Below are positions 44,201 to 64,000 of a DNA stretch of 64,000 nucleotides, piece after piece. This stretch comes from Neisseria yangbaofengii (lineage in GTDB: Bacteria > Pseudomonadota > Gammaproteobacteria > Burkholderiales > Neisseriaceae), in contig NZ_CP062976.1 of assembly GCF_014898075.1 (NCBI RefSeq), positions 1,240,001 to 1,304,000 of the forward strand. The letters are read 5' to 3'. The stretch's first letter is position 1. Every line of letters begins with the position of its first letter. Below the pieces are notes generated by a model, which saw only the letters and a program-made list of their open reading frames with translations, had not been told where the DNA came from and did not search any database. The position numbers and the translations under genes are program-made.

Positions 44201-44212
44201 AACTCGGGTCTC

Positions 44213-45208: not shown

Positions 45209-45220
45209 CGTATTCGGCCT

Positions 45221-46258: not shown

Positions 46259-46268
46259 CTCTCACTCC

Positions 46269-47417: not shown

Positions 47418-47426
47418 GACGGACTC

Positions 47427-48515
47427 CTACGGATTTTTCACTTCGACGACATCAAAATGCTTGCCGTTCTGACGGTAATAGGTCGGTACGGCTTTGACCT
47501 GCAACAGCTTGCGGGTTCTGTCATCCAACGGAGCGGCATTCAGCCCCGCACCGTCCAAACGGCCTAAGCGTGTGTACAGCACCACCAGAGCGGGATGGTA
47601 TTTCTTCATGGCTTGGGCGAAACGTACCTGCCAGGCATTGCGGCCGTCGATGACCACCAAACCGCGCACGCCGGCCGGATCCAAGGCCAAAACATTGAAG
47701 CGTGTTCCGCGCGGATACAGAACCTTGCCGGTTTTCGGATCACGAATATCGAAAGCGGCCGTCTGATAAGGAATCAGGCGGGTAATTTTGCGCTCTGCGG
47801 CTGCCGGCAGGTTCAGACGGCCTGCCAAGGCTGCCTGTGCATCCTGACGGGCTTGTGCCGCTTCCTTGTTCCAGTCGCGCTTTTGTGCCTGTCGGCGCAT
47901 AACGTCTGCCTGATCGGGTTCGCTCACGCGCCACTGCTGGCTCAGGCGTTGGTTGAAACGGCGCTCTTTGACCGCATTGACTGAGGCGTTGATGTTTTGT
48001 ACACCCTGCACCAGATACCATTTGTTGTTGCTGTCTTGATGCGCCAGTGCCGGAACGTAGGTTATCCGGTATTCGGCAAATGCAGCCGGCTGCACGATGA
48101 TGTTCGGCGGGTTTTTCTTGGCACGCTGCGACAGCTTTTTATAGAGGGTGTCGGTATAATCGAACATTTCCTCCACACTGCCGTTCCCCCAGCCACGATA
48201 GGCAAACACCACGTCTTTACGTCCGGCTCCCTGTTCCAACAGACCCAACACAATTTGTTCCGGCATGGAACGGCTTAAAAAGACCACTGTGCGCGTGTGC
48301 TGCAATTCCTCCATAGTCGGATTCTGTCCGGCCGGCAGACGGCGGCTCCCCGCCGTCTGCTGCTCGGCCTCTTTGGTAAACTGCACGCTGCGTGCTTTCT
48401 GCTGCCGGATCAGGTCGCTTAAAAACGCCGCATCATCGGCTTTTGCCTCAAAACAGAACGCGAAGGCGGCCAACCAAAGCGCTGACAGGATACGGACCCC
48501 GGTAGCGGGAGTCAT
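47427..48515 (-). CDS. traW: TrbC-TraW fusion protein
   Basis: A TrbC-like N-terminal half (TRTVVFLSRSMPEQIVLGLLEQG, then NIIVQPAAFAEYRITYVPAL) is fused to a TraW-like C-terminal half (FDIRDPKTGKVLYPRGTRFNVL, GLVVIDGRNAWQV and VKAVPTYYRQNGKHF). Both work in pilus assembly with TraU. The start at 48515 gives a compact signal peptide (MTPATGVRILSALWLAAFAF). Earlier in-frame ATGs at 48536 and 48551 are possible and would lengthen the overlap. In all cases the signal-peptide region overlaps the end of the S26 gene in another frame (68 bases or more). Confidence 0.83.
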   Translation of the reverse strand: MTPATGVRILSALWLAAFAFCFEAKADDAAFLSDLIRQQKARSVQFTKEAEQQTAGSRRLPAGQNPTMEELQHTRTVVFLSRSMPEQIVLGLLEQGAGRKDVVFAYRGWGNGSVEEMFDYTDTLYKKLSQRAKKNPPNIIVQPAAFAEYRITYVPALAHQDSNNKWYLVQGVQNINASVNAVKERRFNQRLSQQWRVSEPDQADVMRRQAQKRDWNKEAAQARQDAQAALAGRLNLPAAAERKITRLIPYQTAAFDIRDPKTGKVLYPRGTRFNVLALDPAGVRGLVVIDGRNAWQVRFAQAMKKYHPALVVLYTRLGRLDGAGLNAAPLDDRTRKLLQVKAVPTYYRQNGKHFDVVEVKNP

Positions 48516-48969
48516 ACGAGTGTTTTTCCGTCCCATACACGAAAACTTCATCCTTTCCCAGACGGTATTCGGTATCCCATGCCGTCAGAGGTTTGTTCCA
48601 CTTGCCGGCGACGTAGCGCACATCGCCCAAAAATTTGCCGTTGATGTACAGATTGCCGTTTTTGATCGTCACCGTGTCTCCGGGCAGTCCCGCAACCAGC
48701 TTGCCGACCATCTCGCCGTCTGCCAGTACCGGCTGCATGTTTTTGGCCGGGAACAGCACCAAATCGTAACGCTCCAACTGTCCGACAGCCTCTGTTTTAT
48801 CCCAAAGATAGACCGACCACGGCAGACAGCCGGAAATCGTGCGCTCCAGCATGATGCCGTAACGCTCGGTAATGCCGACCGAGGCGAACTTGACCGCAAA
48901 AACCAGCGGTACCGCCCACAGGCCGCGCAGCCAGTCGTTTCGGGTCAGCTCTTTCCCCAACACCTTCAT
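48448..48969 (-). CDS. S26/TraF-type conjugative signal peptidase, with Cys at the nucleophile position
   Basis: The 173-residue membrane-anchored protein (LWAVPLVFAVKFASVGI near 17-33) belongs to the TraF/TrsF signal-peptidase group that matures pilin. The general base Lys is seen in MVGKLVAGLPGDTV (about K90), and GTEKHSYDSRYRGPYP is the C-terminal box with its Asp/Arg. The motif that normally reads Ser-x-Pro-x-Gly-x-Tyr is SGCLPWSVY, with Cys48 at the serine position. Its ATG overlaps the trbI stop, so it is translationally coupled. Confidence 0.8.
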   Translation of the reverse strand: MKVLGKELTRNDWLRGLWAVPLVFAVKFASVGITERYGIMLERTISGCLPWSVYLWDKTEAVGQLERYDLVLFPAKNMQPVLADGEMVGKLVAGLPGDTVTIKNGNLYINGKFLGDVRYVAGKWNKPLTAWDTEYRLGKDEVFVYGTEKHSYDSRYRGPYPVSALVGRLRVLF

Positions 48970-49499
48970 CAGTCCAACTCCGCTCCGCCACCGGCCGTAC
49001 TGGTTGCCGGCAAGCCGCCGTCTTGAGGCAGGGAAGCCGGCGGTAGCACGGCAGTGGGCGAAACACCCGTTTGCGGTACAATCAGTGTAATGCCGAGTTC
49101 CTGTGCCACCTGCTCGGTAATGTCCGCCCCTTTAGGGTAGGTTACGACGGCCGAGCGTTGGACGATAATCATGCCGTCATCGAACATCCGGCTGAATTTC
49201 TCCTGCACCTGCTCGAGATTCTGCGTCAGCATCCGGCGCACCTCGTCAGGGTCTTGGTTGTGCGACCGGCTCATTGCCTGTGTCAGGTAAGACGCCGCCA
49301 GGCAGTCGCTGTCCACCACATAAAATCCTGCGGCAGGTTTAACAGTAAGGCCGAAAGACGACTGGTAAAAGTTGTAGCCGGCCAGCATCAGCGCCGCCGC
49401 CGCCAGCCCCAAGGCCAGCAGGCTGCCGGAGCCGTTGTCGGCCGTATCGGGACGGCCGCCTGTTTCCTGCTGATTGTCTGTTTGGGTTTCGCTGCTCAT
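48969..49499 (-). CDS. trbI: TrbI, F-type conjugative transfer protein
   Basis: The 176-residue inner-membrane protein has a polar N-terminus, one membrane segment (LLALGLAAAALMLAGYNFYQ) and a periplasmic region containing the TrbI pattern FYVVDSDCLAASYLTQAM and EKFSRMFDDGMIIVQRSAVV. In F, TrbI affects pilus retraction. The tail is Pro/Gly-rich. It overlaps its upstream and downstream neighbours by four bases on each side, a tight operon between traC and the S26 gene. Confidence 0.82.
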   Translation of the reverse strand: MSSETQTDNQQETGGRPDTADNGSGSLLALGLAAAALMLAGYNFYQSSFGLTVKPAAGFYVVDSDCLAASYLTQAMSRSHNQDPDEVRRMLTQNLEQVQEKFSRMFDDGMIIVQRSAVVTYPKGADITEQVAQELGITLIVPQTGVSPTAVLPPASLPQDGGLPATSTAGGGAELD

Positions 49500-49765
49500 G
49501 CCTGCTCCTTTTCAGATTCCGTTTGTGCCGTTTTACCTTCATAACGGGCGGCCTCGGCCATCAGACCGTCAATGGTTTGGCGTGTCGTTCCATCCCCGTA
49601 ATAGTGGGCTACCCGTTCCCAATCGAAGTGTTCGGCTAGCGGTCCTTCCGCCGTATCGAAAACAACATCAATCCAACCATCGTTCTCGGCACCGACCACC
49701 ACGCCGGTAATTTCCGGTGTTTCGCGGTAATACACCAAATCGCCGAATGAGAATGTCGCGCTCAT
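49496..49765 (-). CDS. Hypothetical protein, 89 residues, between traC and trbI
   Basis: An acidic soluble protein (FSFGDLVYYRETPEITGVVV, DVVFDTAEGPLAEHFDWERV) of unknown function. Its N-terminal half resembles a small beta-barrel of the kind that reads GDLVYYR..GVVVG, but I cannot name a family. AAGGA lies seven bases upstream of the ATG. It is coupled to trbI by a four-base overlap and lies 15 bases after traC, so it belongs to the tra operon. Confidence 0.7.
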   Translation of the reverse strand: MSATFSFGDLVYYRETPEITGVVVGAENDGWIDVVFDTAEGPLAEHFDWERVAHYYGDGTTRQTIDGLMAEAARYEGKTAQTESEKEQA

Positions 49766-49780
49766 TGCATAATCCTTGTC

Positions 49781-52288
49781 TTAGTCAAACGTACCGTCGC
49801 CGTAACGGTTCCAGGCTTCGCGGCGGATAAGGTCCGCCACTTTCTCACCGGCACGGATGCGGTTTTTCAAATCGGTAAAAAATGCCCCTTCGGTACTGAA
49901 CAGCACGCGGTTGAATGGGGTTTCGATCAGCCACACGATACCGGCCGTCTCTTCGCCGGAAATCAAGACGAACTCGCCGTACTCGCCTTTGACCGTATGG
50001 ATTTTCTGCAACAGGCTCGAAATATAGGGAGAGGGCTTGAACCAGCCTTCCCGCGTCGCCTGTTCCAACGAATCGCCGGTCTGACGGAACATGAATTTGG
50101 TGTAGGTCGAACCCATGATGTCGTAACCGAATTTGGTGGCGAATACCTGGTTGAAGGTTTGTCCGACCACCCATACGCCGCCGTCTTCTTTACGGACTTT
50201 GGAACACAACTGCCCCGTCCATTGCGCGAACGGCGCATCCTTCAGCAAGTCGCCGCACTCTTCCAGCCACAACAGCCGTTTGCGGCCGTCGTGTTTCATA
50301 AACATTTCCTGACTGATGCCGGTGGCCGTCATCATCAGCACCACATCGTGCAGATGGCGGTTGGTCGCCAATCCCGACATTTCCAGCACCGTCCAGTCCG
50401 CCTCGGTACGCAGGTTGTTTTTACCCCGGAACCAACGCCCCATGCTGCCGGTCGAGCCGAAAGGCATCAGCAGCATGGCCAACTCATGTTGTTTGCCGCT
50501 CATATGGCCGCTTTGTGCCTGCAAATACTGAATCACATCGGTTACTTCGGCATCATTGGCTTTGGCCGTAAATACCGACTGGATTGCTTCCATCAGCAGG
50601 GCGCTTTCCAAATCGTCCAAACCTTCGGTCGGTTTGGCCATCTTCCCGAAAATCGGAATCAGGATTTCCATCTCGCGCTCGATGTCGCTGATACGGGTAA
50701 ACGGATTCAGGCAGATGTCGGAGTTCGGATGGAAGTCGATAACCTGTGCGCCGGCGATTTGCGCCGCCGCCACATAACTCATGCCCCGGTCGATGGTCCA
50801 AACCTTGGTGCCCAGCGACAGTTCGTCCTGAATCATGCGCTGAGACAGTACCGATTTACCCTGACCGGACTGGCCCAAGATCAGACCGTTGTAGTTAGAG
50901 TTCTGCGGGTCGAAAATACCGAATCGGAACGGTTTGCCGCGACGGGTGGTAAACAGGCTGCGGTTGCCGAAACCGCGCCATTCGTCCATCACCGGCAGCA
51001 GGTGTGCCGCCAGAGCGGTCGGCATGGTTTTAAAACGGAACGTCCGTTTGATGCTCTCCGGCGATGCGTTCATCGGCAGCGTATTGAAGAAGCTGACTGC
51101 CGGTAACAACCGTTCCTGACGCATCAGAAAGCCGTTACTGCGTAAATAGGCCGCCATGCGTGCCAAACTTTCACGGATCTGCCGGCGGGAATGATGGAAC
51201 AGCGAATACGTCGTGCAGACCTCGACCACCTGTCCGCCTTTGGTGGTTTCTTCCTGTATCATTTTGAAACCCGCGAGACGGCGGCGCAGACGCGGGGAAA
51301 TATTCAACGCTCCCGGTACTTTGGCTGCCCGTTCCGTCATCAGGTGGTCGGAACTGACCTTGCTGCGCTTTTTATCCTGATTCGGAAAATGAATCGTGGT
51401 CTGGAACATATACGGCATACCCGGCTGCGGGCCGCTGCCGCTTGGATGACCGATCAAATCGATCATGCGCGACATATGCCACGGCTTCTCTTGGGTCGGA
51501 TAACGGTCGATGGTCAGAATGCCGACGTTTTGATTTTTACCGTCATGCGAAAAGCCTTTACACAGCAGCATTCCCTGTCGGAACATTCCCCAATCCACCG
51601 ATGTTCCCGGTGGGAACAGCTGCACGTTCAACGGCATTTCCTCATCAATTCCGCCGTCCCATTTGCCGTCCATATCAAAGGGGCGCCGCATAATCGCCAT
51701 CGCTTCGGAACGGTCAGCCAACCGGATATTGAGGCCGGCCGAGCGCAACTGGCTCAGACACTGGCTGTACAGCCGTTTGAACTCCTCACATTCCTTCATA
51801 AACTTGCGGTAGTCTTCTTCCGATCCGTCCAAAGGGCGTTTGGTTTTAAGCGGAATCTTGAGCGTCCAAGTACACACCGGTTGCAGGATTTTGGCATCGC
51901 TGGCATGCAGCAGTTTGCGTTTCGTTCCCTCCCGAAGATATTCGGCACGTCCAGCTACCGCTTCTTTAGCCAAAGCGACCGACTCGTCGCCGTAAGCACC
52001 CAGGCGTTCCGCCTCGTAACGGCCGGTTACTTCGTCAATGTCGGGGATGCCGAAATTGTGAAAAGACATCAGCGTGCCTGCCGGATATTGGATTTCCAGC
52101 AATTCGTCAAAGGAATTACCCATTTCCGCATTCCAGCCCGGAAGCGGATCGAACAGACCCATGGTCGCAATCGCATTTTCGTTTTCGTAATAGAAAATTC
52201 CGTCAGCATCATCGCCGGCAATCAGGCTGACAAATTGACGGCCGCCGTCGCGGTTGCGGTTGATTTCAAAAATATCGGGTTTAGACAT
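49781..52288 (-). CDS. traC: TraC, conjugative secretion ATPase (VirB4 family)
   Basis: TraC is the cytoplasmic ATPase that powers pilus assembly. The 835-residue protein has the TraC N-terminal domain (FYYENENAIATMGLFDPLPG), then Walker A NGLILGQSGQGKSVLSQRM near residue 470, Walker B RKRLLWLEECGDLL and the motif GGVWVVGQTFNQVFATKFG. The C-terminal part includes FRQTGDSLEQATREGWF. Full length and intact, unlike traD and traG. In other F-type systems it is preceded by traL/E/K/B/V/A. Here ssb is directly upstream. Confidence 0.93.
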   Translation of the reverse strand: MSKPDIFEINRNRDGGRQFVSLIAGDDADGIFYYENENAIATMGLFDPLPGWNAEMGNSFDELLEIQYPAGTLMSFHNFGIPDIDEVTGRYEAERLGAYGDESVALAKEAVAGRAEYLREGTKRKLLHASDAKILQPVCTWTLKIPLKTKRPLDGSEEDYRKFMKECEEFKRLYSQCLSQLRSAGLNIRLADRSEAMAIMRRPFDMDGKWDGGIDEEMPLNVQLFPPGTSVDWGMFRQGMLLCKGFSHDGKNQNVGILTIDRYPTQEKPWHMSRMIDLIGHPSGSGPQPGMPYMFQTTIHFPNQDKKRSKVSSDHLMTERAAKVPGALNISPRLRRRLAGFKMIQEETTKGGQVVEVCTTYSLFHHSRRQIRESLARMAAYLRSNGFLMRQERLLPAVSFFNTLPMNASPESIKRTFRFKTMPTALAAHLLPVMDEWRGFGNRSLFTTRRGKPFRFGIFDPQNSNYNGLILGQSGQGKSVLSQRMIQDELSLGTKVWTIDRGMSYVAAAQIAGAQVIDFHPNSDICLNPFTRISDIEREMEILIPIFGKMAKPTEGLDDLESALLMEAIQSVFTAKANDAEVTDVIQYLQAQSGHMSGKQHELAMLLMPFGSTGSMGRWFRGKNNLRTEADWTVLEMSGLATNRHLHDVVLMMTATGISQEMFMKHDGRKRLLWLEECGDLLKDAPFAQWTGQLCSKVRKEDGGVWVVGQTFNQVFATKFGYDIMGSTYTKFMFRQTGDSLEQATREGWFKPSPYISSLLQKIHTVKGEYGEFVLISGEETAGIVWLIETPFNRVLFSTEGAFFTDLKNRIRAGEKVADLIRREAWNRYGDGTFD

Positions 52289-52354: not shown

Positions 52355-52771
52355 TCAGAACGGCGAATCGTCCGCTTCGGAATCGTTCGGGCGTGGCGGA
52401 CGTAAGGTGACGGATTCGATGCGGGTCGAATCCAGATTGAGGTAGATGTCTTCTACGCGGATTTTACGGGTACGGTGAACCACACCGTCTTTCTCGTAAG
52501 AACCGATGCTTTCGCGGCCGGTAATCGTTACCGGCAGACCCTTGACCAGAATACCGGCCAAATGCTCGGCACGGCGCTCCCAGTATTCGCATTCGACCCA
52601 TTCTGTATGGCCTGCGACATAACGGCGCTCGCCCGACGAATTATCAGGACGGTATTCGGTAGAGGCGATGGAAAAATTTAGTACGGTGGCTTCTTCGCCG
52701 CCGGAACGTTGGGTTTTTTTGAGGGTAATGTTTTGACCGAGATTACCTCGGATTTTCAAATCAATAGACAT
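52355..52771 (-). CDS. ssb: Single-stranded DNA-binding protein of the element
   Basis: The 138-residue OB-fold SSB has the family pattern VLNFSIASTEYR, EWVECEYWERRAEHLAGILVKG and LPVTITGRESIGSY. It ends in an acidic tip DSEADDSPF that resembles the DDIPF partner-binding tail of chromosomal SSB. The start at 52771 is favoured because AAGGA is nine bases upstream of this ATG. The ATG at 52780 directly abuts that site. It ends the maintenance block and precedes traC, like the ssb genes of the gonococcal island and SPI-7-type elements. Confidence 0.93.
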   Translation of the reverse strand: MSIDLKIRGNLGQNITLKKTQRSGGEEATVLNFSIASTEYRPDNSSGERRYVAGHTEWVECEYWERRAEHLAGILVKGLPVTITGRESIGSYEKDGVVHRTRKIRVEDIYLNLDSTRIESVTLRPPRPNDSEADDSPF

Positions 52772-53034
52772 AGCAGGCATTCCTTGCGGATTGCCTGTGT
52801 TTTGAATATGGTAGAACAGAAATTCTACCGATAGAGATGGGGGTAGAGTGGAATTTACTCCCGAATTTTTTAGTTGTCAATAGGTTTTGTGAAAATTTTG
52901 CAGGCGGTCATTTTCAATACCCAAACGGTTGAAATTAAATGGAATAAGCATAATGCTGCCACAGGAAGCGTATCTCGCGCACAAACCTCCGACTCATCTC
53001 TGCCACAGATATTTCTCCTTGCACAAACATCAGG

Positions 53035-53853: not shown

Positions 53854-54993
53854 TTATGCTTCTTCCCCGACAGCCAAAAGCCCGTATTGCGCCGCATAAG
53901 CCGTCATTTTTTCCAAATCGGCAGCCGAGAACGGAGAGCACAGGAAAATGTATTGCGGTACGGTCTCATAGATCAACACATTACGCGGAATAGGATCAAC
54001 CGCCTTTTCATCGATCGCCGTTTTCAGACGTTTGCCCAGCGAACCGTCTTCATCATTCAGGAAGTCGTGACGGGAAAGGTTTTTAATCTTGCGCATTTTC
54101 ATTGTGACCAAATACAGATTTTGGTTCAATCGTCTGATTTTCGAACCTCCTGCACGGATGATTTCGTTACATACCGAGTTTTCCAACAGACCTTTCAGCA
54201 TCAGTGTTTTGGCCAGACGGATATACAGGTCGTATGCTGTCAACAGTTGGATCAGACTGAAACCGTAACCACGGATATGGCCGACAGGAATGCTGACCGG
54301 CTTTTCGTTTTCAACCACACCGATATGGATGCCGGAAGTGTTGACCCGTTCCACCAACAAACGCATTTTGTCGGTTTCGGTCTTCAAAAAAGCCGCCGTC
54401 TGAGACAACTCGTGTTCGAACCGAATCAGTGCGGCATGGGCAAACGGATTACCGTCTTGGGTCATTTTAATCAGTTCAGCCGTCAATGCCATTACATAAC
54501 GGATACCCGGCCAGCGTTCACGGATACGGTTCTTATCATTCATCCCCTCCCATGCACGTACAGCCTGTTTGGTATGCAGCAACACATAGTCCTGTTGGAT
54601 ATCACGCAGTTTGCCGATACTGTCAAACTTGGAATCCGCGCTCATAAAAATTTCGATATCTTCCAAAGAAGTAGCACCGGCATTTTTAAAAAACGGATTG
54701 AGGCTGGCAGCCCCCATACGAGGGGCGAGACGTTTGTCTCGGATATATTTTTGAAGCAACTGCCTGTGGCTGGAGAATTGGCGCACCGCCTCATATTCGG
54801 GATTATCCTTCGGAACGCTGAAAATATTGATCTGATGGACACCGCCAAACAAATCGCCTAAACGCTTTTCTTCGCCGTCATAGTCATACCCGTTGGAGAA
54901 GAACGACTGCTTGACCGTCGGTATTTTCTGAGACCATTCGGGCGGTGTTTGAATGGCGAAAGGCGGAATAACGATATGGTGTTTTGCACTCAT
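53854..54993 (-). CDS. DUF1845/PFL_4669-like conjugative-element protein
   Basis: The 379-residue soluble protein resembles the integrating conjugative element family TIGR03761: DYVLLHTKQAVRAWEGM, then a helical core (VMALTAELIKMTQDGNPFAH) and YGFSLIQLLTAYDLYIRLAK, ending in KIKNLSRHDFLN. Its molecular role is unknown but it always travels with parB, ssb and DUF2857 genes. The start at 54993 (GGAG seven bases upstream) is preferred. The frame extends upstream into the repeat cassette, giving an artificial YTPYTPTETN peptide. The gene is flanked by direct repeat cassettes. Confidence 0.68.
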   Translation of the reverse strand: MSAKHHIVIPPFAIQTPPEWSQKIPTVKQSFFSNGYDYDGEEKRLGDLFGGVHQINIFSVPKDNPEYEAVRQFSSHRQLLQKYIRDKRLAPRMGAASLNPFFKNAGATSLEDIEIFMSADSKFDSIGKLRDIQQDYVLLHTKQAVRAWEGMNDKNRIRERWPGIRYVMALTAELIKMTQDGNPFAHAALIRFEHELSQTAAFLKTETDKMRLLVERVNTSGIHIGVVENEKPVSIPVGHIRGYGFSLIQLLTAYDLYIRLAKTLMLKGLLENSVCNEIIRAGGSKIRRLNQNLYLVTMKMRKIKNLSRHDFLNDEDGSLGKRLKTAIDEKAVDPIPRNVLIYETVPQYIFLCSPFSAADLEKMTAYAAQYGLLAVGEEA

Positions 54994-55057
54994 GGAAAAG
55001 CTCCTCGGGTTAAGTGGATAAACTGGTCGGATTTTTGAGCCAGCTGCGGAAATATTC

Positions 55058-55216
55058 GTTTCTGTATAGGGGGTATACACCCTGATATTCGTTTCTGTGG
55101 GTGTATAGGGGGTATACACCCTGATATTCGTTTCTATGAGTGTTCAGGGGGTGAACACCCTGCAAATTTCAGCTTCGCCCCTTACCCTTAAAAGCCTTTT
55201 AGTGTGCGGACTTTAA
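55058..55216. repeat. Repeat cassette 2: three palindromes plus conserved tail
   Basis: Palindromes at 55063-55079 (short arms), 55099-55121 (GGGTGTATA arms) and 55140-55158 (GTGTTCA arms), all with a GGGGG centre, alternate with CCTGATATTCGTTTCT. The tail (55172-55216) matches that of cassette 1. It lies upstream of the DUF1845-like gene and fills the 303-base gap from 54994 to 55296. Confidence 0.88.
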
Positions 55217-55296: not shown

Positions 55297-56748
55297 TTAA
55301 CGGGTGAGTTTCTGTTTCAGCATCTTCTGTATATCGGCAAAGACTTTTCTGCCAAAATCTTTTTCTTTCGGGGTTTCAGACGGCGCTACTGTTTCCGGCA
55401 ATACTCGGTTGGCTGTCATGCGTGCTGTTTCAATTCGCATGTTTCTCACAATGGATGCAAATGAGTAGGTTAAGCCTTCGGGACTGGCAGCCTGTTTGCA
55501 CAAGTGTGTCAGTAAACCCAGCGGACTGTTGACGGGTTTAACCTGACCGGCAATCTCATCAAGAATTTCCTGATATTGGTCGTGGCTGCCATTGGGAAAG
55601 TACTTAACGAAGATGTGTTGGCAGTCTGTTTTCAATTTGGACAGCTTGGAGGGGTATGCCAAACCGTCAAAACGGATGTCTGCATCCCCATTGGAAGGAG
55701 CAGGTGTATCAACCACTACCACATCACATCCCTGTGAAGTTCCAGTACCGGTGTTTGTTGTAGTTGTAATATCCTCCGTAGGAGGATTATTGTAATTATT
55801 ACTATATATATTTTGCCGATTAGTCACTTCTGGCTTTCCCAAATCGTCACTTCTAAACTTCTGACTTTCCCCTTTTGTTACTTCCGAGTTTGCCAATTTG
55901 TCACTTCCCAAATCCTGCCCCGTTTGTGCCTTGCGTGCTGCCAATACACCCAAACGCATTTCCGGCTTCAGGGTGAGGCTGATTTTTTCTTCCAGCATGG
56001 CCATTAGACGTGCGCCATTGATGTGGCTGAAGATACGGGCGTTCTGCTCGTAATGCTTTTCTACCAGCAGACCGGCATTCTTCAACATGGTTCGGGTACG
56101 CTGCTGAGGTTTGTAGCCCAGCATGGTAGCTTCTTCCCATTCTTTGATGGTGGCCGAGTAATACAGACGGCGCATCATAAAGGGGTTGTTCAGATTGGCG
56201 TGACGTGCGCTTTGGTGAAGGGCATTCGACAGGATAACGGCGGCATGGATGTCACCGGTCAACCATACTAAATCGAGGTGGTACACGATGGAGTCGCTGA
56301 AATAGTCACGGATAAATCCTAATTCCTGTTTGCGCCATTCCTCAATGGTCAACTGGGTAATATGCGTTAAACCGAAAGATTCGCAAATGGCTTCAGACAA
56401 TGCCTCCAAATTAACACGCACAGCCAAACGCGCACCCTGGCCGATACGGGCAACCTGAATCAGGTTGAGTTCGACCAGTTTGTCTTTGCACAATCCCTGT
56501 TCACGTTTGGTCAATCCTGTTTCTTCTTCCGTTTCGGCAATAGATTTGAAAATCCAGCCGTCACGGATTTCGACATTGATACCGACCCGCAGCCAGTAAA
56601 GCAGTTGTGACAGATAGGAGGCAGTTTTAAGGCTGCCGGTAATCTGTATCAGGCTGCGGTGTACTACGATACGGCGGCCTGACTGCAAGCGCCGCCAACA
56701 GGCAATAAGATTGCCGTTGAACTCTTTCGGAGGGAGCAGTTCGTTCAT
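55297..56748 (-). CDS. Winged-helix DNA-binding protein, possible replication factor of the element
   Basis: 483 residues. The N-terminal part looks like the winged-helix domain seen in plasmid and phage replication proteins (ASYLSQLLYWLRVG, then WIFKSIAETEEETGLTKREQ). The centre predicts a second helical DNA-binding unit (MMRRLYYSATIKEWEEATML). A disordered Thr/Asn/Asp stretch near 300-360 (TTTTNTGTGTSQGCDVV) precedes a helical tail. SPI-7-like elements carry a replication-type protein (STY4528 family) at this position. GGGAGG lies four bases before the ATG. Membership is inferred. Confidence 0.55.
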   Translation of the reverse strand: MNELLPPKEFNGNLIACWRRLQSGRRIVVHRSLIQITGSLKTASYLSQLLYWLRVGINVEIRDGWIFKSIAETEEETGLTKREQGLCKDKLVELNLIQVARIGQGARLAVRVNLEALSEAICESFGLTHITQLTIEEWRKQELGFIRDYFSDSIVYHLDLVWLTGDIHAAVILSNALHQSARHANLNNPFMMRRLYYSATIKEWEEATMLGYKPQQRTRTMLKNAGLLVEKHYEQNARIFSHINGARLMAMLEEKISLTLKPEMRLGVLAARKAQTGQDLGSDKLANSEVTKGESQKFRSDDLGKPEVTNRQNIYSNNYNNPPTEDITTTTNTGTGTSQGCDVVVVDTPAPSNGDADIRFDGLAYPSKLSKLKTDCQHIFVKYFPNGSHDQYQEILDEIAGQVKPVNSPLGLLTHLCKQAASPEGLTYSFASIVRNMRIETARMTANRVLPETVAPSETPKEKDFGRKVFADIQKMLKQKLTR

Positions 56749-56757
56749 GATGCCTCC

Positions 56758-57501
56758 CTATGCCTGCGGGTTATGCAGATACTGCCATGACAGATCCGCT
56801 ATGGCTTTATGGTTCAGGCGGAATACGGTCAGTTCGTATAAAGGATGCCGACCCGCTTCCAATAATCCGGCTTTAGCCAAAGCTTTCATGGCGTGCTGTT
56901 GCTCTGCCTCATTCAACATTGACATGGTCTTTACCTGGTTCTCGGTATAGAGAATCCATTCACTAAAATCACCGCGTTTGTCGGGTGTTTGATAGCGTTG
57001 TTGTGCCTGAACCATAAAATAGAACAACACATCGTTGATTTTGAGGCCGGATTGCAGCATGGCTGCCGCACACAGCCGGTCAACCGGAACGGACGGCTTC
57101 ATGCTGTATGTGCTGTCGCCGCGCAAAGCGTTATCCTGTTCGCGCAGCGCATCAGAGAAGTGTTTTTCGTTCAGGCTATATACGGTATTCATCCCGGAGC
57201 GTTCAGACAACAAAAAGCCCTGTTTCTTCAATAGACGGCGCACGTTATGCCATCGGCTCTGCCCAAATCCTAAGCCATCACGCATATCGGCATCGCTGAT
57301 GGTTACTGACTGACCATAAGGGCAGCTACGAACCATCCATGATAAGAAGTAACCGGCATAGGTATCGCCCGCCAACTGGCCGTAAGCGGGAACATACAGC
57401 ACCGGTTCTTCCATCAAAGAGCCTAATACGCTGGTAATGACTTGGTTCTGTTCGATTTCCACAAGTTCGGGATACTCGTACAGGTTTAATACATTGTTCA
57501 T
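56758..57501 (-). CDS. Winged-helix protein, paralogous in style to its downstream neighbour
   Basis: 247 residues with a winged-helix-like core (AGYFLSWMVRSCPYGQSVTI, then MRDGLGFGQSRWHNVRRLLK and GFLLSERSGMNTVYSLN). The middle segment (RGDFSEWILYTENQVKTMSM) again looks like a helix-turn-helix. The overall plan resembles the N-terminal half of the 483-residue neighbour. A role in replication or regulation of the element is likely but unproven. Its ATG overlaps the preceding DUF2857 gene stop by four bases. Confidence 0.55.
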   Translation of the reverse strand: MNNVLNLYEYPELVEIEQNQVITSVLGSLMEEPVLYVPAYGQLAGDTYAGYFLSWMVRSCPYGQSVTISDADMRDGLGFGQSRWHNVRRLLKKQGFLLSERSGMNTVYSLNEKHFSDALREQDNALRGDSTYSMKPSVPVDRLCAAAMLQSGLKINDVLFYFMVQAQQRYQTPDKRGDFSEWILYTENQVKTMSMLNEAEQQHAMKALAKAGLLEAGRHPLYELTVFRLNHKAIADLSWQYLHNPQA

Positions 57502-58142
57502 TTCAGATACTCCGAGATGGCAGTATTCAACTGGGAAAGGTCATAGTCGGGAAAGGCTTTGTGCAGCAGTTGATAGCGCGTATAACTGTCTTTCTCCTGT
57601 TCGCACAATTCCTCCCAGTAAGCTGCAACCGTCAGTTGCTCTTCCAGCTCCAGTGTTTTACGTCGGCCGACTGCTACCGGCAGGTTCATTTCTGCACGCA
57701 GTTTCTTAATGTCGGCCGATGCCAGCATCGCGCACATATTCAGGATCATGATGTTACTCGCACCATGAGCAACCAGCCATTCGCATTGCTGCATCTGGCG
57801 TTGGCGCTTCTCGTTCTGTTCGCGCTCGATACGCATGATTTCCTGTAAAGTGTTTAGGTCGATACGGACTTCTAATACTCCTGCCAGGCGTTCGGCAATC
57901 GTGCCGACTTGTTCCGCTGTCAGTTTGCTCAGATATTCGAATACCTCAGCGTATTTACCAATCATCACGGAATTGGTTATGCGTTCCTGCTTGCATGGCG
58001 AACCGGCAGCAAGGATATTCAGAATCTGTGCATAGAGCGGGGCGTTCTTGCCTGTCAGCCGCATCTTGTAGGTATCTGCAGCCGACATCACGACAGGTTG
58101 GCGGCGTGCCGTATTTCTCAACATTCTTCGTTCGGGAAACAT
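57498..58142 (-). CDS. DUF2857 protein (element maintenance), copy 1
   Basis: 214 residues. The DUF2857 pattern is visible: IDLNTLQEIMRIEREQNEKR, then a conserved CEWLVAHGASNIMILNMCAM, IKKLRAEMNLPVAVGRRKTL and EEQLTVAAYWEEL. This family always accompanies the parA/parB genes of SPI-7-type elements; its role is not known. A strong GAGGAGG lies seven bases before the ATG at 58142. It follows parB by 15 bases. A second, diverged copy starts at 63473 on the other strand. Confidence 0.75.
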   Translation of the reverse strand: MFPERRMLRNTARRQPVVMSAADTYKMRLTGKNAPLYAQILNILAAGSPCKQERITNSVMIGKYAEVFEYLSKLTAEQVGTIAERLAGVLEVRIDLNTLQEIMRIEREQNEKRQRQMQQCEWLVAHGASNIMILNMCAMLASADIKKLRAEMNLPVAVGRRKTLELEEQLTVAAYWEELCEQEKDSYTRYQLLHKAFPDYDLSQLNTAISEYLK

Positions 58143-58157
58143 ACTCCGTCCTCCTCG

Positions 58158-59822
58158 TCAAACGGGTTTGAACACATCCATTTTCGGCCAGCCGCAACGG
58201 TGTGCATTGATAACCGCCTGCAGATATTCGAACAACAGCGGTGACAGTTCTTCATCACCCGTCATCAGGTAATAGACGTTCAGGTTCAGATTGTCGAAAC
58301 CGCCCGCTCCCAAAGTGTATTCAACCACGTCTTTAAATAATTCCGGATCGCGGTAAGCGGCCGCCAGTACGGGATGTCTGCGTTCGTTTGCCAAAAACGG
58401 ATTGTATTTTTGCAGCATATCAGGCGAACCGAACAGTTCGGATTCGTTGCTGGTCTGCCACAAATAACCAAAGACGACTGAGGCACGCGGATGACGGATG
58501 TTCAGACTGCCGTTTATCAGCAGGTTACCGCGCCATTCGTCACTGGAAAAATCCGGCAAATCCAGCATGTAGCCGTAAGGCATTTTGTCGTCAAATATTA
58601 GGAAATCACGGATGTTGGCTGCATTTGTTAGGTTAATCACAGCAGTATGCAGGGCTTTGATTGCCTGATTTTCATCTAAGGCTACCGCTGCGGCAGCCGA
58701 AGGCAGGGTTACGGGATTATGGGCAGAATCGGAAGTAGGGGATTCGGCCGCAGATTGAGGAAGAGGGCGGTTACTGGTTTCAGTTTCGCGTATGAATGCC
58801 TCGTAATGCGGTTCGACCGCCTTCCGAGCCACGCTGTCGCTCTGCACATCAGGCGTTGCTGTTGTTTCCGCTTTTTCCTGCGTCTCCGAATCGGACGCTG
58901 TTCCAGTTTCGGCGGCGGAAGCCGCGCCATGGCCGCTTGGAGAAGCTGTCCCAGTTTCCTGTTTGATGCCGTAAACGGCCTCAAACTGCTGTTGCAGATA
59001 TGCTTGAAGCGCCGGAACATCGAGTTCCGTCTCTTCAATATGGTCGCTGTGCCATGTATCTAACGTAGCCTCCCAAAAGTCGGCAAACGCTGTCCCAGTT
59101 TCATGCTCGGAAGCAAGCTGTCCCAGTAATTCGTTGTATTGTTTGCGGATGGCCGAACTTTTAGATAAGGAAAGGTCATTACAGAACTTGCCGAGTGCGC
59201 TCAGGTTGTCAGTAGCAAAGAAGTAGAGAGATACTGCGCCTAATGAAATAGACAGGCCTTTTTTACCAAACTCATCCACCAACTTGCGCAAACCCAAGGT
59301 TTGAGAGGATTTTTCTTGCAACATATCGCGGATTTCCGCATACGCGCAGGCTTTGTCCCAAAAAACCATATCCGCACGCTGTTCGTTTTCAATCAGGTGG
59401 GCGATTTGGATGTCTTCGTCGTTGGTGTATTCAATATAGATGCACGGAATGCTTGCAAAACGGGCATCGTCGGTTTCCTCATACAGTTCTTTGACGATTT
59501 TAAGGCGAGTATTACCGCCTTGTGCCAGTATGTATTTACCGGAATCGGGGCGACGGGTCACATGCACGGGGTGCTGTACGCCCGATGCGCGGATAGAAGC
59601 TTTGATTTGTCCGTACAATTCCTCGTCGTGTTGGCGGCGGGGATTTTTGTCGAAAAAATCAATGTCGTTGACTGATAAATTGAGGAACATGCCCGGCATA
59701 TTTTGCGGGGCAGTATTCAGATTCATACCGGTTTGTGTCGGATTGGCAACGAGCAGGCTGGAATTGACCAAGCCGCCCGTCAGTTTCCGAGTCGGTCTGA
59801 TGGGTTGGTTGCCGTTGGACAT
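58158..59822 (-). CDS. parB: ParB-like DNA-binding partition protein, copy 1
   Basis: 554 residues. The N-terminal ParB/Spo0J domain is clear: IDFFDKNPRRQHDEELYGQI, GVQHPVHVTRRP, YILAQGGNTRLKIVKELYE and the CTP/DNA box AHLIENEQRADM. A helix-turn-helix part follows (LGLRKLVDEFGKKGLSISLG). The middle is low complexity with repeated ETGTAS. The C-terminal 180 residues form a separate domain (PYGYMLDLPDFSSDEWRG). It is coupled to parA upstream and DUF2857 downstream. It is similar throughout to copy 2 at 61909, with a matching C-terminal domain. Confidence 0.9.
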   Translation of the reverse strand: MSNGNQPIRPTRKLTGGLVNSSLLVANPTQTGMNLNTAPQNMPGMFLNLSVNDIDFFDKNPRRQHDEELYGQIKASIRASGVQHPVHVTRRPDSGKYILAQGGNTRLKIVKELYEETDDARFASIPCIYIEYTNDEDIQIAHLIENEQRADMVFWDKACAYAEIRDMLQEKSSQTLGLRKLVDEFGKKGLSISLGAVSLYFFATDNLSALGKFCNDLSLSKSSAIRKQYNELLGQLASEHETGTAFADFWEATLDTWHSDHIEETELDVPALQAYLQQQFEAVYGIKQETGTASPSGHGAASAAETGTASDSETQEKAETTATPDVQSDSVARKAVEPHYEAFIRETETSNRPLPQSAAESPTSDSAHNPVTLPSAAAAVALDENQAIKALHTAVINLTNAANIRDFLIFDDKMPYGYMLDLPDFSSDEWRGNLLINGSLNIRHPRASVVFGYLWQTSNESELFGSPDMLQKYNPFLANERRHPVLAAAYRDPELFKDVVEYTLGAGGFDNLNLNVYYLMTGDEELSPLLFEYLQAVINAHRCGWPKMDVFKPV

Positions 59823-59824
59823 GA

Positions 59825-60736
59825 TTATTCTCCCGCTGTATCGGTTTCAGGTTCTTCTGTACCGTATTCGCTGTACAAATCGGCCATATTATTGAAGAAA
59901 GTGCCTTCCAACTGCTGATCTTTAATCGGCGGGAAAAGCTCATACACGAGAGAAGTCATTACTGAGAGTGCAGATTCGGACTTGCCTGCGTGTTCGCGTT
60001 CGTGGCAATGTACCGGAATCCGATAAGTAGAGGCTTCCAAATAGGCTTTGGCATACGGAATAACCGTGTTCAGAATCTGATTTTTACCGTCAATGGAAGT
60101 ATTGAATTCGGCTTTGATTTCATCAGCAATCAGACGGGCATTACGCGAACGGTCTTGCGCGTAAATCAAGGCACGCAGAGGCGGAACCTCTAAGTTGATG
60201 GCCGAACCGAGGCTGAGGCGTTCCAGCAGACCCAACGTACCTTTCAAAAACTCACGCGTGCTGAGTGCGCTCGGATTGATTGGGCTGAGGAGCATGGTTG
60301 AAGCATAGACAACAGCATCCTGAACCGGACCGACAGCTCCTTGGGTGTCGATAATAACAATATCGTAATTGGTCTGAATGAACGGATGAACCAGCTTCGA
60401 ACGCAGCAAAACGGCGCGGTCGATGCGGTTTTGGACATTGATACGGACATCATCCGACAGGTTGTTTGACAGGATAATGTCCAAATTCGGATAAACCGTA
60501 TTGGAAACGGTAGATGAAATGGTATTTTCGGAATTATCTCCCAAAAGCAACTCGACAATACCGTTCGGTGCAACGTAATGCAGCGGATAGTATTTGCTCA
60601 AAGATGCTTGAGGGTCGGCATCAATCATTAATACACGGAAGCCCATATCGGCAAGCATGCCGCCGATGTTTGCAGTAACAGTTGTTTTTCCTGTTCCACC
60701 TTTGGTTCCCACGGTTCCAAGAGTCATAATAGGCAT
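59825..60736 (-). CDS. parA: ParA-family partition ATPase, copy 1
   Basis: The start at 60736 (AAAGGT eight bases upstream) gives 303 residues. It begins with the deviant Walker A TVGTKGGTGKTTVTANI. The Asp of Walker A' is in VLMIDADPQASLSKYYPLHY, the Walker B Asp in YDIVIIDTQGAVGP, and basic PPLRALIYAQDRSRNARLIA follows. Members segregate DNA or position cargo. In gonococci, ParA of the related island is required for DNA secretion. A further upstream frame, to 60928, covers the dif site and is not a credible start. It is divergent from copy 2 at 61013. Confidence 0.92.
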   Translation of the reverse strand: MPIMTLGTVGTKGGTGKTTVTANIGGMLADMGFRVLMIDADPQASLSKYYPLHYVAPNGIVELLLGDNSENTISSTVSNTVYPNLDIILSNNLSDDVRINVQNRIDRAVLLRSKLVHPFIQTNYDIVIIDTQGAVGPVQDAVVYASTMLLSPINPSALSTREFLKGTLGLLERLSLGSAINLEVPPLRALIYAQDRSRNARLIADEIKAEFNTSIDGKNQILNTVIPYAKAYLEASTYRIPVHCHEREHAGKSESALSVMTSLVYELFPPIKDQQLEGTFFNNMADLYSEYGTEEPETDTAGE

Positions 60737-60847
60737 AGGATGACCTTTGTAAAATTGCGTTAAAAATAAGCCTATACCGTATATCTTGACTGTTTTAAAC
60801 CACTTCGAACGCCGGTTTGGAGATTTTACCAAAGGCAGCGTTCTTTG

Positions 60848-60875
60848 ATTTCGCATAATGTATATTATGTTAAAT
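60848..60875 (+). other. dif: Near-perfect neisserial dif site (XerCD)
   Basis: The 28-bp site has XerC arm ATTTCGCATAA, six-base centre TGTATA and XerD arm TTATGTTAAAT, which as I remember the neisserial dif consensus differs at one base of 28 (second position, T for G). It lies in the 276-base gap between the two divergent parA genes. Apart from possible promoters the gap holds no gene. Confidence 0.9.
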
Positions 60876-61012
60876 TTTAGACTGAGGCTCCGAAGTGTCT
60901 GAATTTGGCAACGGCATCCCACCGTCAAAAGGCATTATTTATCCCCCTTTTTTGGGTAAAAGATGGAAATTTATTTTTATTAACTTCCATTTTTCAATAG
61001 TAAGGATAAATT

Positions 61013-61912
61013 ATGTCTGCACCCGTAATTTTAGCCGCCACCTCAACCAAAGGCGGGGTCGGCAAAACCACTTTGCTGGCAAATGCCTCGGCTGTACTGG
61101 CCGATATCGGCCTGCGTGTCCTCATGGTTGATGCCGATGTTCAACCGTCACTTTCCAAGTATTATCCGCTCAACTACCGTGCACCTAACGGTATCGTAGA
61201 ATTGCTGCTTGGCGATAATTCTGATACCAATGTACGCTCAACAGTGTCCAATACGATTTTCCCAAATCTGGATATCATCATTTCCAACAATATCTCGGCC
61301 GATATCCAAACCAAAATCGCCAATCGTGCCGACCGTGCTTTCTTGTTGAAAGCCAAATTCCAAAATCCTTTCTTTCAAAATAATTACGATGTCATTTTAA
61401 TCGATACGCAAGGCGCAGTCGGTGCCTTGCAGGATGCAGCTTCCTTCGCCGCCAGCTGTCTGATTACTCCTATCATGCCTGAAATCCTCAGTGCCCGTGA
61501 GTTCGTCACCGGTACTCAGGAAGCTTTGTCACGACTGGCTCAAGGTGAAGTAATGGGACTTGGCACCCCACAGCTGCGTGCCATTATCTACGCTCAAGAC
61601 CGCAGCAAAGATGCAAAACTGATTGCCCAAGAAATCCGCGAATTTTTCAGTGTGTCACTCGATGACCGTAAAAAGCTGCTCCAAACCACCGTTCCGGAAG
61701 CAAAGTCGTATAAAGAAGCGGCAACATTGCGTATCCCTGTGCATTGCCATGAGCAGCAGCACCCGGGCAAGCTGATGCCTGCCTATGAGGTGATGCACAA
61801 TATTGTTTACGAAATTTTCCCAGGGATCCAAGAACGTCAACTGCGCGGAAGCTGTTTCAACAACATGACCACCCTGCTGCCTGAAGAAAAATCTGCGGAG
61901 GTATTGTCATGA
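61013..61912 (+). CDS. parA: ParA-family partition ATPase, copy 2
   Basis: 299 residues with deviant Walker A ATSTKGGVGKTTLLANA, VLMVDADVQPSLSKYYPLNY, and YDVILIDTQGAVGALQ. It is colinear with copy 1 at 59825 throughout (same NIVEL-type IVELLLGDNSDTNV, ISNNISADIQTKIANRADRA and ATLRIPVHCHEQQHPGKLMP). It lies just outside the dif site and reads outward. AAGGATAAATT precedes the ATG. Its stop overlaps parB copy 2 by four bases. Confidence 0.92.
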   Translation: MSAPVILAATSTKGGVGKTTLLANASAVLADIGLRVLMVDADVQPSLSKYYPLNYRAPNGIVELLLGDNSDTNVRSTVSNTIFPNLDIIISNNISADIQTKIANRADRAFLLKAKFQNPFFQNNYDVILIDTQGAVGALQDAASFAASCLITPIMPEILSAREFVTGTQEALSRLAQGEVMGLGTPQLRAIIYAQDRSKDAKLIAQEIREFFSVSLDDRKKLLQTTVPEAKSYKEAATLRIPVHCHEQQHPGKLMPAYEVMHNIVYEIFPGIQERQLRGSCFNNMTTLLPEEKSAEVLS

Positions 61913-63483
61913 ATGGAAATCAATTGACCCAAGGTGTGGCCGGTTTAAGCCTCCATATCGGTACCCCGGTTCAGACAAACATGCTCTTAAATGACAAACC
62001 GGCCATGGCTAACGGCATGTTCATGCAGCTGCCGGTGGCAGAAATCGAGTTTTTCGACAAAAACCCGCGCCGCCAACATGATGAGGCCAGCTACGCTGCC
62101 ATCAAAGAATCCATCCGTGCCACCGGTATCCAACAGCCTGTGCATGTGACCCAGCGTCCGGGAGAAAACCATTATGTTCTGGCTCAAGGGGGCAATACAC
62201 GTTTGAAAATCATGCGGGAACTGTATCAGGAAACAGAAGAAAGCCGTTTCCGAAACATTCCCTGTTTCTACGTGGCCTATACAAACGAAACCGATCTTCA
62301 GATCGCCCATTTAATCGAAAATGAGCAGCGTGCAGAGATGTGCTTTTGGGATAAGGCCTGTGCTTATGCGGAAGTCCGCGATATTTTTCAGGATGAGAGC
62401 GACAAACGCCTTTCCCTGCGCGAATTGGAGGTGATGTTTGGTGCGGCCGGTTTGATTGTCTCATACCAAGCGTTAAGCCTGTTCTTCTTTGCCTCAGATT
62501 CTTTACAGGAACTGGGTCGTTATGCCTATGAACTGTCAAATCCGAAGGTATCAGAAATCAAAAAATTGCATACAGCCATGGCAGCTGCAGCCAAAAAAGC
62601 CGGTGAGGCCGACGGCTTCCTCGCAACATGGTCGGATATTCTGGAACAGTGGCACGAACAATTCACAGCGGACACTTTGGATGTGACCGCCCTGCTCGAT
62701 TTTGTCAGCGGCCGCTTTGAAGCAGTATATGGCACAGCCGCCTTTATTGATGAAGATAAAACTGACTCAATTGACATCCAATATTCGGAATCTGATTCAA
62801 ACTCCTTAGAAAATTATCCATCTTCTGCAAAATTAAACGCTGAAGAAACCGGTGCAGTGCAGCACCAAGCTGCACCTGCCGCCACAGGCGGCACACCTGT
62901 GTCCAACAAAACTGTGCCAGTGTCTTTCACGCCGACAGGCGCGGCGCGGCCGGAGGTCGACCCTCCGGCTGGGACGGCTCATACGGCGGAAGCTGGAACA
63001 GCCGGACAAATCACCAAAAACCTGCATACCGCAGTCAAAAAATGGCTGAACCGTGTCGGCCTGGGCGAATGTTTTAAAAGCAATCCCGCTTTCCCGCTTG
63101 GCTTCTACATCGAATATCCGGACTTTTCAGCGATTGCCAACAACCCTGATGTAATTTCCCCTTTCATTGTCGATAACCTGCATGCCGAGGCCGGTAATGT
63201 GTTTACCTATTTGTGGAAGCTGTGCGGGTTGGATGAGCTGATGCTCAATATTGATGATGCGGACAATCCTATTCTGGCACTCCCTGAAGATTCTAAGGTC
63301 CGTATCGCCTATCACGATCCGGACAAATGGGATGAGTTTCTGAATTTCGGGATTGGCGAACGCCCTGCTTTGATTAACTGTGTCTTGGGCTGGCAAACCC
63401 GTGCGGATCATCCCTTCTGCGCTGTTTTGGACGAAATCCACCTGCTTGTGCGGCAAATCAACGGGGGGCGGCATGATGGCTAA
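61909..63483 (+). CDS. parB: ParB-like DNA-binding partition protein, copy 2
   Basis: 524 residues, clearly paralogous to the 58158 copy. It has IEFFDKNPRRQHDEASYAAI, GIQQPVHVTQRP, YVLAQGGNTRLKIMRELYQ, LIENEQRAEMCFWDKACAYA and then LSLRELEVMFGAAGLIVSYQ. A disordered, Ser/Ala/Pro-rich middle follows, then a C-terminal domain (PLGFYIEYPDFSAIA) equivalent to that of copy 1. It overlaps the start of the following DUF2857 gene by 11 bases, so the trio is translationally coupled. Confidence 0.9.
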   Translation: MNGNQLTQGVAGLSLHIGTPVQTNMLLNDKPAMANGMFMQLPVAEIEFFDKNPRRQHDEASYAAIKESIRATGIQQPVHVTQRPGENHYVLAQGGNTRLKIMRELYQETEESRFRNIPCFYVAYTNETDLQIAHLIENEQRAEMCFWDKACAYAEVRDIFQDESDKRLSLRELEVMFGAAGLIVSYQALSLFFFASDSLQELGRYAYELSNPKVSEIKKLHTAMAAAAKKAGEADGFLATWSDILEQWHEQFTADTLDVTALLDFVSGRFEAVYGTAAFIDEDKTDSIDIQYSESDSNSLENYPSSAKLNAEETGAVQHQAAPAATGGTPVSNKTVPVSFTPTGAARPEVDPPAGTAHTAEAGTAGQITKNLHTAVKKWLNRVGLGECFKSNPAFPLGFYIEYPDFSAIANNPDVISPFIVDNLHAEAGNVFTYLWKLCGLDELMLNIDDADNPILALPEDSKVRIAYHDPDKWDEFLNFGIGERPALINCVLGWQTRADHPFCAVLDEIHLLVRQINGGRHDG

Positions 63484-64000
63484 GAACAAATCTTTGGTCT
63501 ACCGCATGGCCAGCACCGACAGCCTCCATACTTTCTTGGCTTTGAGTAAGCTGGCCGCAGCGCCGCATTCTAAAAATGAAGCCTCATACAATGCGATTGC
63601 ATTGCGGGAGCATAAACAGACCTTGGCCAAGCTGCGTCAGATGGACACCAAACAACTGGAAAAATTAGCCAAACACTCCATCGGTGTCGTGAGCTACCTG
63701 ATTGATCTGGACTGTCTGCAGGACAATCTGAACGTATTTGAAAAGAATGTTCAGCAGTATGAAGAAGAGCTTCAACGTGTCCGTTGGCTTGTAACCCGTA
63801 AAGCCAGCAACCAGATGATTATTGATTTGTGCCCTTTGGTCAGTTTCGATGAAATCAAAAAGGTTCGTCTTGAATTGGGGATGCCCGTATCCCGAGGCCG
63901 TCTAAAAATGCCCGATACGAATACTAGACTTCAGATTTTGAAGGCATGGCAAAAAAATCAGTCAGAAAAAAACCTGTATCTGCGCTACCAAAACTTGTCT
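63473..64000 (+). CDS. DUF2857 protein, copy 2 (partial, runs off the window)
   Basis: An open frame from ATG 63473 (or ATG 63476, both after GGGGGGCGGC) continues to the end of the window without a stop, at least 176 codons. It matches copy 1 in the diagnostic part: VRWLVTRKASNQMIIDLCPL, then FDEIKKVRLELGMPVSRGRL. It follows the same parA-parB order as the 57498-60736 block but on the opposite strand. The upstream part is more diverged than the core. No terminator is reached in the window. Confidence 0.8.
   Translation, partial: MMAKNKSLVYRMASTDSLHTFLALSKLAAAPHSKNEASYNAIALREHKQTLAKLRQMDTKQLEKLAKHSIGVVSYLIDLDCLQDNLNVFEKNVQQYEEELQRVRWLVTRKASNQMIIDLCPLVSFDEIKKVRLELGMPVSRGRLKMPDTNTRLQILKAWQKNQSEKNLYLRYQNLS

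Follow-up and report, generated by a model that had tools for sequence, protein, structure and literature searches.

Two diverged islands of the gonococcal genetic island family on either side of one dif site in Neisseria yangbaofengii

The 64,000-nucleotide stretch of the Neisseria yangbaofengii chromosome analysed here (the window; contig NZ_CP062976.1, positions 1240001-1304000) contains, near its right end, a single dif site flanked by two islands of the gonococcal genetic island (GGI) family. These islands, denoted A (left of dif) and B (right of dif), are very probably separate elements that have both inserted at the one chromosomal dif; the opposite polarity of their attachment (att) sites would explain why each took a different side. 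Another 76 kb past the right end of the window were also analysed, and positions there are given in continued window coordinates.

Two islands around one dif site

The dif site common to both islands (60848-60875, plus strand; ATTTCGCATAATGTATATTATGTTAAAT) is a perfect 28-bp copy, the sole match with three or fewer mismatches in the single 2,645,607-bp contig, and lies at 49% of the contig. Two parA-parB-DUF2857 trios flank it head-to-head (60736-57498, minus strand; 61013-64078, plus strand), and the gap of 276 bp between both parA genes (60737-61012) holds dif. The first-pass annotation, made from the letters of the window, had described two trios in this order and orientation, with similarity in all three proteins and with dif and about 275 bp between them; coordinates and Pfam matches bear this out, and the identities are 57% for ParA, 40% for ParB and 31% for the DUF2857 proteins. 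It had also ascribed the same overlaps to both trios, which is true of B, where the parA/parB and the parB/DUF2857 junctions both overlap, but not of A, where the respective genes are 2 bp and 15 bp apart. Of the extent given there for the right-hand trio (61013-64000), the start stands, but the DUF2857 gene really runs to 64078, past the window end.

In A, the trio consists of parA (59825-60736, minus strand; PF13614/PF01656, ParA/AAA_31 E-value 1.8e-23), parB (58158-59822, minus strand; PF02195, 24.4 bits against a cut-off of 26.3; the integrative and conjugative element (ICE) ParB model TIGR03764, 142.1 against 143.75) and a DUF2857 (YfeB-type) gene (57498-58142, minus strand; PF11198, 39.9 bits against a cut-off of 36.8). 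The counterparts in B, all on the plus strand, are parA (61013-61912; PF13614, ParA/AAA_31 E-value 1.1e-23), parB (61909-63483; TIGR03764, 148.2 bits, above the cut-off of 143.75; ParB_N, 25.3 against 26.3) and a YfeB-type DUF2857 gene (63473-64078; PF11198, 44.6 against 36.8).

Each island extends from this dif to a diverged dif-like site of its own, and all three sites are on the same strand. Island A (33016-60847; 27.9 kb between its outer att and dif) ends at 32988-33015 (plus strand; AATTCGCATAATGTCGGGTTTATGACAA), where the XerC arm is intact (0 of 9 positions mismatched) and the centre and the XerD arm are degenerate (3 of 6 and 6 of 11). Island B, with its inner end at 60876-64000 in the window, continues to 115881, 55 kb in all, and its outer site (115882-115909, contig 1355882-1355909, plus strand) has the reverse design, with an intact XerD arm (0 of 11), one mismatch in the 6-bp centre and a degenerate XerC arm (4 of 9). 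On the left, local alignment to the chromosome of Neisseria weixii 10022 (NZ_CP023429.1), which has no A island, stops at 32999, the first base after the XerC arm at the outer end of A; in N. weixii, the chromosomal gene that flanks A in our genome ends 71 bp left of dif. The host XerD and XerC are encoded by separate genes, each scoring above its own NCBIfam cut-off.

Both islands have the ends of an integrative mobile element exploiting Xer (IMEX), that is, a dif-like site and an intact dif (32988 and 60848, in the same orientation, for A; 60848 and 115882 for B); B differs from an IMEX in encoding an integrase of its own, a 355-aa Xer-like tyrosine recombinase (114643-115710). As in the GGI, parA lies at the intact dif in A, traD is the outer gene and the outer site has the divergent XerD arm. 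In B, parA is likewise the inner gene and traI, traD and a DUF4400 gene are outermost, but the divergent arm is that of XerC. The possibility, raised from the trios, of two adjacent elements is thus upheld by a second full element to the right, with a MobH relaxase, a coupling protein and the further degenerate dif at 115882 in the extended sequence.

The gene sets of A and B are mirrored and strongly diverged. Going outward from the trios, the next gene products are 28%, 40%, 30% and 29% identical, followed by Ssb (39%), and the TraD proteins of the far ends are 68% identical. B is consistently closer than A to the gonococcal-type island of genome G015 (ParA 70% versus 55%, ParB 54% versus 37%, TraD 83% versus 68%), so that the comparison with the gonococcal island proposed in the first pass singles out the right-hand set. 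The ParA tree places B with G015 (99/98), and A joins G006/G021 and G004/G008 there (96/95); the ParB tree again has B with G015 (93/93), and A with G006/G021 only (100/100), G004/G008 falling outside the A group. By these comparisons, B is the closer relative of the gonococcal GGI; as it combines this kinship with mirror polarity, the two polarities do not represent two old lineages. Neither a duplicated partition system, the two being diverged islands, nor a single composite element is supported.

Compositional polarity was considered as a cause of the mirror layout and is uninformative: GC skew flips sign across the terminus (+0.028 in the left and -0.069 in the right chromosome) and is near zero in both islands (A 0.000, B -0.016).

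Islands and dif variants in other Neisseria genomes

Islands were located via ParA, a search in which 9 of 45 Neisseria genomes match at 1e-20 and islands without ParA are not counted. A-side islands are found at dif in five genomes (the present one, labelled G000, and G003, G015, G006 and G021) and B-side islands in three (G000, G003 and N. weixii, G042), with both sides occupied in G000 and G003. The same head-to-head layout is seen in G003, with a different A-side island and with an XerC-degenerate outer site on the B side. N. weixii has the B island alone at dif; this copy is 96 kb long, ends at an XerC-degenerate outer site and includes traI, traD and a GGI-type type IV secretion system (T4SS); its recombinase gene is broken. 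The island of G015, taken as the gonococcal-type reference after 12 of 12 tested MS11 GGI primers matched it without mismatch, has the GGI gene order, spans 58.7 kb between its sites and lies on the XerC side, with XerC arm and centre of the outer site intact and 4 of 11 XerD-arm positions mismatched; the passages describing the gonococcal difGGI give it the same polarity, with the XerC arm intact and the XerD arm divergent (PMC5357621). Related islands of G004 and G008 are located away from the dif site found, and in G031 parA is at a contig edge. The ends of the B islands of G003 and N. weixii are 99.3-99.6% identical at the DNA level, whereas the single chromosomal gene available for comparison is 74% identical; this suggests that B-class islands moved recently between species.

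Polarity of the B type is common at dif in this genus. The pattern composed of the dif centre and XerD arm, searched with at most one mismatch, matched in 31 of the 45 Neisseria genomes, and eight of the 45 have additional sites less than 100 kb from dif (five in G025, four in G036, two in G037 and one each in G000, G003, G014, G038 and N. weixii). All 16 are on the XerD side in the same orientation; this count leaves out a distant site in G036 (2259816) and one in G005 that is on another contig and has its XerC arm intact. The XerC arms have 4-6 mismatches in 9 positions in 14 arms of five genomes (the distant G036 site included) and 4, 3 and 3 mismatches at the outer B sites of G000, G003 and N. 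weixii, respectively. Two of the arms, AAACTACATAA and AAGGAAAATAA, are those printed in passages on the vgrG islands of N. subflava KU1003-01 (PMC10210955), and both are present in G025. The converse search, with XerC arm and centre, added sites in just two genomes, G015 and G005 (on its second contig, with both arms intact), and missed the outer A site of G000 because its centre differs. Islands with a degenerate XerC arm on the XerD side are thus common in Neisseria, stacked several deep in G025, G036 and G037, and are in part already known.

In a set of 80 ParA loci reaching beyond the genus, 4, N. weixii included, have a dif-like site with 7 or fewer mismatches in 26 positions no more than 1.5 kb upstream, and single-base shuffles used as a control never fell below 8 mismatches. 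Dif-like sites are located 110-152 bp upstream of GGI-type parA in Thiobacillus (L113), Hydrogenophilales (L139) and Parasulfuritortus (L159); in the Thiobacillus locus, the degenerate XerD arm is on the parA side, contrary to the rule that parA abuts an intact arm. In another genome (L044, from G030), a short, weak parA-like match (28-45 codons) close to dif on its XerD side is possibly another relic. N. gonorrhoeae is represented in the plasmid collection by two chromosome records, neither among the ParA-match organisms at 1e-30, and the ParB searches of the named collections gave one distant match, then none.

Origin of the arrangement and role of the parAB modules

Two successive integrations can accommodate the sequence evidence, namely the arm states of the three sites, the position of the left junction, islands of separate ancestry, the recurrence of the layout in G003 and the presence of B alone in N. 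weixii. In its circular form, A would follow the GGI design, with the good XerC arm adjoining parA and the degenerate XerD arm adjoining traD; recombination with dif would leave, on the left, the chromosomal XerC arm joined to the degenerate XerD arm of A and, on the right, the XerC arm of A joined to the chromosomal XerD arm, a rebuilt dif. Circular B would have the mirror design, with a degenerate XerC arm on the side of traD and the recombinase gene and a good XerD arm on the side of parA, and its recombination with the rebuilt dif would create a middle site with the XerC arm of A and the XerD arm of B and a right site with the degenerate XerC arm of B and the chromosomal XerD arm. Given integrations of opposite polarity, parA would therefore face parA, and the middle dif would be intact, with one arm contributed by each island; loss of either island would again leave an intact dif. 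We infer the circular forms, integration by XerCD (perhaps with the B recombinase) and this order of arrival. By likeness to the gonococcal difGGI, at which FtsK stripping prevents excision according to the passages concerned (PMC5357621), the degenerate outer sites may keep the islands from excision. The end bases of the XerC arms fit this scheme: the middle dif starts with ATTTCGC and the outer left site with AATTCGC, the same as the chromosomal arm of N. weixii, as would be expected if the middle arm came with A.

Several observations weigh against this reconstruction. The argument on the donor of the middle XerC arm depends on two end bases. Neither a circle junction nor an empty site in a sister strain, nor any other recombination product, was observed. 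The outer A site, with half of its centre changed, matches dif weakly beyond the XerC arm, and no outer site was found for three of the five A-side islands (G003, G006 and G021), so that it is G000 and G015 that define the A-side polarity. The centre of the middle site varies as well (TTTATA in G003 and N. weixii, CATAAT in G006 and G021), and full XerCD compatibility is therefore an assumption. The interior of B is a mosaic in which segments shared by G003 and N. weixii are 77-96% identical and G003 has a large deletion; thus, it is the ends of B that support recent transfer, and the chromosomal control for that transfer is one 1-kb gene.

If the reconstruction is correct, an essential site can serve two large islands at once and remain intact, and a simple rule, by which the degenerate arm decides the side, predicts the location of dif-targeting islands. 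A further implication is a class of mirror-image GGIs that encode an Xer-like protein of their own, and it becomes testable whether XerC- and XerD-arm degeneracy differ in stability and whether parAB located beside dif has any role in segregation. Resolution of chromosome dimers in this strain would rely on mobile-element DNA if the middle dif is a hybrid.

An alternative with an appreciable but clearly minor chance of being right is that B is an ICE that uses its own Xer-like tyrosine recombinase at dif, alone or together with host XerD on the divergent XerC arm. The recombinase (355 aa; PF00589, 59 bits; best NCBIfam model XerC, with 108 bits, far under the 335-bit cut-off) is encoded 171 bp from the outer B site and, in the passages available, gonococcal GGIs are described as lacking a recombinase gene of their own (PMC5431661). 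Its homologues (E-value of 1e-25 or less) are confined to 3 of 82 Neisseriaceae genomes, each time beside the outer site, and the same three are the carriers of B-side islands among the 45 Neisseria genomes checked, islands in the other 37 genomes being outside that check. Against such autonomy, XerC-degenerate sites occur in G014, G025, G036, G037 and G038, which have no homologue, so the recombinase is not required for that polarity; G004 and G008 have only weak relatives (23-25%), and the N. weixii copy of the gene is broken. In the alignment, the first Arg, the His-x-x-Arg motif and the Tyr are kept, but both intact copies are without the beta-hairpin Lys of XerC/XerD and have Tyr in place of the second His; with these residues missing, catalysis by the B recombinase is uncertain. 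Relatives in plasmids and phages all show less than 60% identity, the best about 25%. That it assists as a partner on the divergent arm, or in excising the island before transfer, would be a guess.

A broader and rather speculative extension, somewhat less probable still, is that dif in Neisseria is a two-sided, polarity-coded landing pad, its XerC side taken by XerD-degenerate islands and its XerD side by stacks of XerC-degenerate ones, that the Xer-like protein of the conjugative B class is a dedicated partner standing in for XerC at the divergent arm, and that the sole dimer-resolution site can thus be assembled from half-sites of two competing islands.

It is improbable that the parAB modules serve in genuine partition, anchoring the terminus at the cell centre, with dif adjacency selected and the two sets diverged against cross-talk. 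The position of parA next to dif in all three B-side and all five A-side islands agrees with such a role, although these islands were found via ParA and the count is not independent; moreover, dif adjacency follows from integration alone, and the G004 and G008 islands lie away from the dif found. ParB identity between A and B, by alignment columns, is 42% before column 51, 54-72% in columns 51-200 (50-column windows) and 18-32% beyond 200, a profile that would fit separate A and B specificities without showing them. Palindromes resembling parS (arms of at least 7) are absent between dif and parA of either island in G000, on the B side of G003 and N. weixii and in G006 and G021; one is present in G015 and two on the A side of G003. 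According to the passages on the gonococcal proteins, DNA secretion requires ParA and ParB, both of which bind the relaxase TraI; signs of ParA-ParB pairing are limited (PMC8716806, PMC4207684). Because of this function of the gonococcal homologues, both parAB pairs are best read, by analogy, as transfer modules of the two islands rather than as a doubled terminus-partition system.

Duplication and inversion of one island around dif, or an assembly chimera, although it would place the same genes in mirrored order with dif at the axis, was rejected as extremely improbable, given that the A and B backbone proteins are only 28-57% identical and group apart in both trees, that the contents differ (part of a T4SS in A; TopB, a helicase, two-partner secretion and a relaxase in B), that G003 has the same layout with a different A-side island, and that N. 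weixii carries B alone. Nor does the right-hand set, as the first pass had allowed, end abruptly in chromosomal genes, none of which is reached for 55 kb. Two separate islands that entered one dif with opposite polarity thus remain the favoured explanation.

Gene content and comparison with known systems

Island A is an eroded island with a GGI-type gene set, all listed genes being on the minus strand. At its outer end, traD (33834-35900), encoding the coupling protein, is split over two frames (552 and 206 aa), followed by a C-terminal remnant of the relaxase gene traI (35908-36090; 48% over 61 aa in a tblastn search with TraI of B). A partial F-type T4SS (41633-52288), identified by Pfam, consists of the N-terminal part of TraG, TraH, TraF, TraU, TrbC, an S26 signal peptidase and TraC; downstream of the TraG_N gene, a 1106-aa open reading frame (ORF; 38231-41551) without a Pfam match is, by position and length, probably the rest of TraG. 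Toward dif, there follow ssb (52355-52780; PF00436), an AcaB-family gene (53854-55119; PF08900, 30% to its B counterpart) and two conserved backbone genes without Pfam match (55297-57501; 40% and 28% to B counterparts). The T4SS block (38231-52288) reads toward traD, opposite to the GGI order, and ends beside ssb; an inversion and deletions inside A account for this order. As expected of an IMEX, none of the six PF00589 places in the genome is inside A; among the ORFs of A that were scanned, a short one with a resolvase-type helix-turn-helix (36056-36451) is the only other recombinase-like gene seen. Nested inverted repeats (33043-33245), including perfect 28-nt arms at 33091-33118 and 33169-33196, adjoin the outer A site. 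In the dif gap, four promoter consensus matches were found against 1.2 expected; these are consensus matches only and were not used. Rfam gave no match at the gathering threshold in 57000-64000; in the gonococcus, an RNA switch has been reported upstream of parA.

In B, the genes just inside the outer site are traI (MobH; NF041494, above cut-off), traD, the DUF4400 gene and the recombinase gene; the island also encodes TopB, a helicase and two-partner secretion genes. The latter region (90093-105906) contains an ShlB-type transporter gene and then a 2677-aa ORF with partial copies downstream, which, from its position, looks like a two-partner-secretion exoprotein. About 70 bp outside the outer B site there is a third parA remnant (57 codons, one of them a stop, 82% to B parA) and, after it, an open frame that we take to encode an IS30-type transposase (together 115980-116520; contig 1355980-1356520); other genes lie beyond. 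This remnant is likely to derive from an older B-side island pushed outward by B. B of G000 keeps the MobH relaxase and TraD, and a tblastn search with the transfer genes of G015 revealed no T4SS genes there; a TraB homologue was not found in this genome, in a search that lacked its own positive control. Because of the split traD, the traI remnant and the missing TraB match in A, and the missing T4SS matches in B, neither island looks self-transmissible in its present state.

The biology of the GGI and islands at XerC-variant dif sites were known before, and the two-sided arrangement is new: in the titles, abstracts and passages searched, no report was recognised of a two-sided or head-to-head GGI, or of a GGI-type backbone in XerC-degenerate polarity opposite a GGI of the usual kind. 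Among known systems, the IMEX arrays at dif1 of Vibrio cholerae (CTX, VGJ, TLC) also combine several elements at one dif, with a degenerate XerD arm in TLC as in the GGI; these are small phages, and the respective passages contain no mirror-image conjugative pair (PMC4246890). PAGI/clc-like ICEs share the ParA-ParB-DUF2857-SSB-TopB backbone set, often near an element end, but a dif-centred pair is not described in the passages on them (PMC3334931). ICENmCC103 of N. meningitidis is, in the passages describing it, a GGI-like island at dif, but a single one with a serine recombinase gene (pinR) instead of an Xer-like tyrosine recombinase (PMC5431661). The dif sites of the N. subflava KU1003-01 islands have, like the outer B site, an intact XerD arm and a divergent XerC arm, but these are type VI secretion system vgrG clusters, and the passages available do not give the side of dif or mention sharing with a GGI (PMC10210955). 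The closest system is the GGI itself, an IMEX at the Neisseria dif: A resembles it in the intact XerC and divergent XerD arms, the outer traD and parA at the intact dif, and B in the backbone order from parA and, more closely than A, in sequence. Unlike the GGI, A is eroded, B lies on the other side of dif in reverse polarity with its own Xer-like recombinase, and the two islands share one dif.

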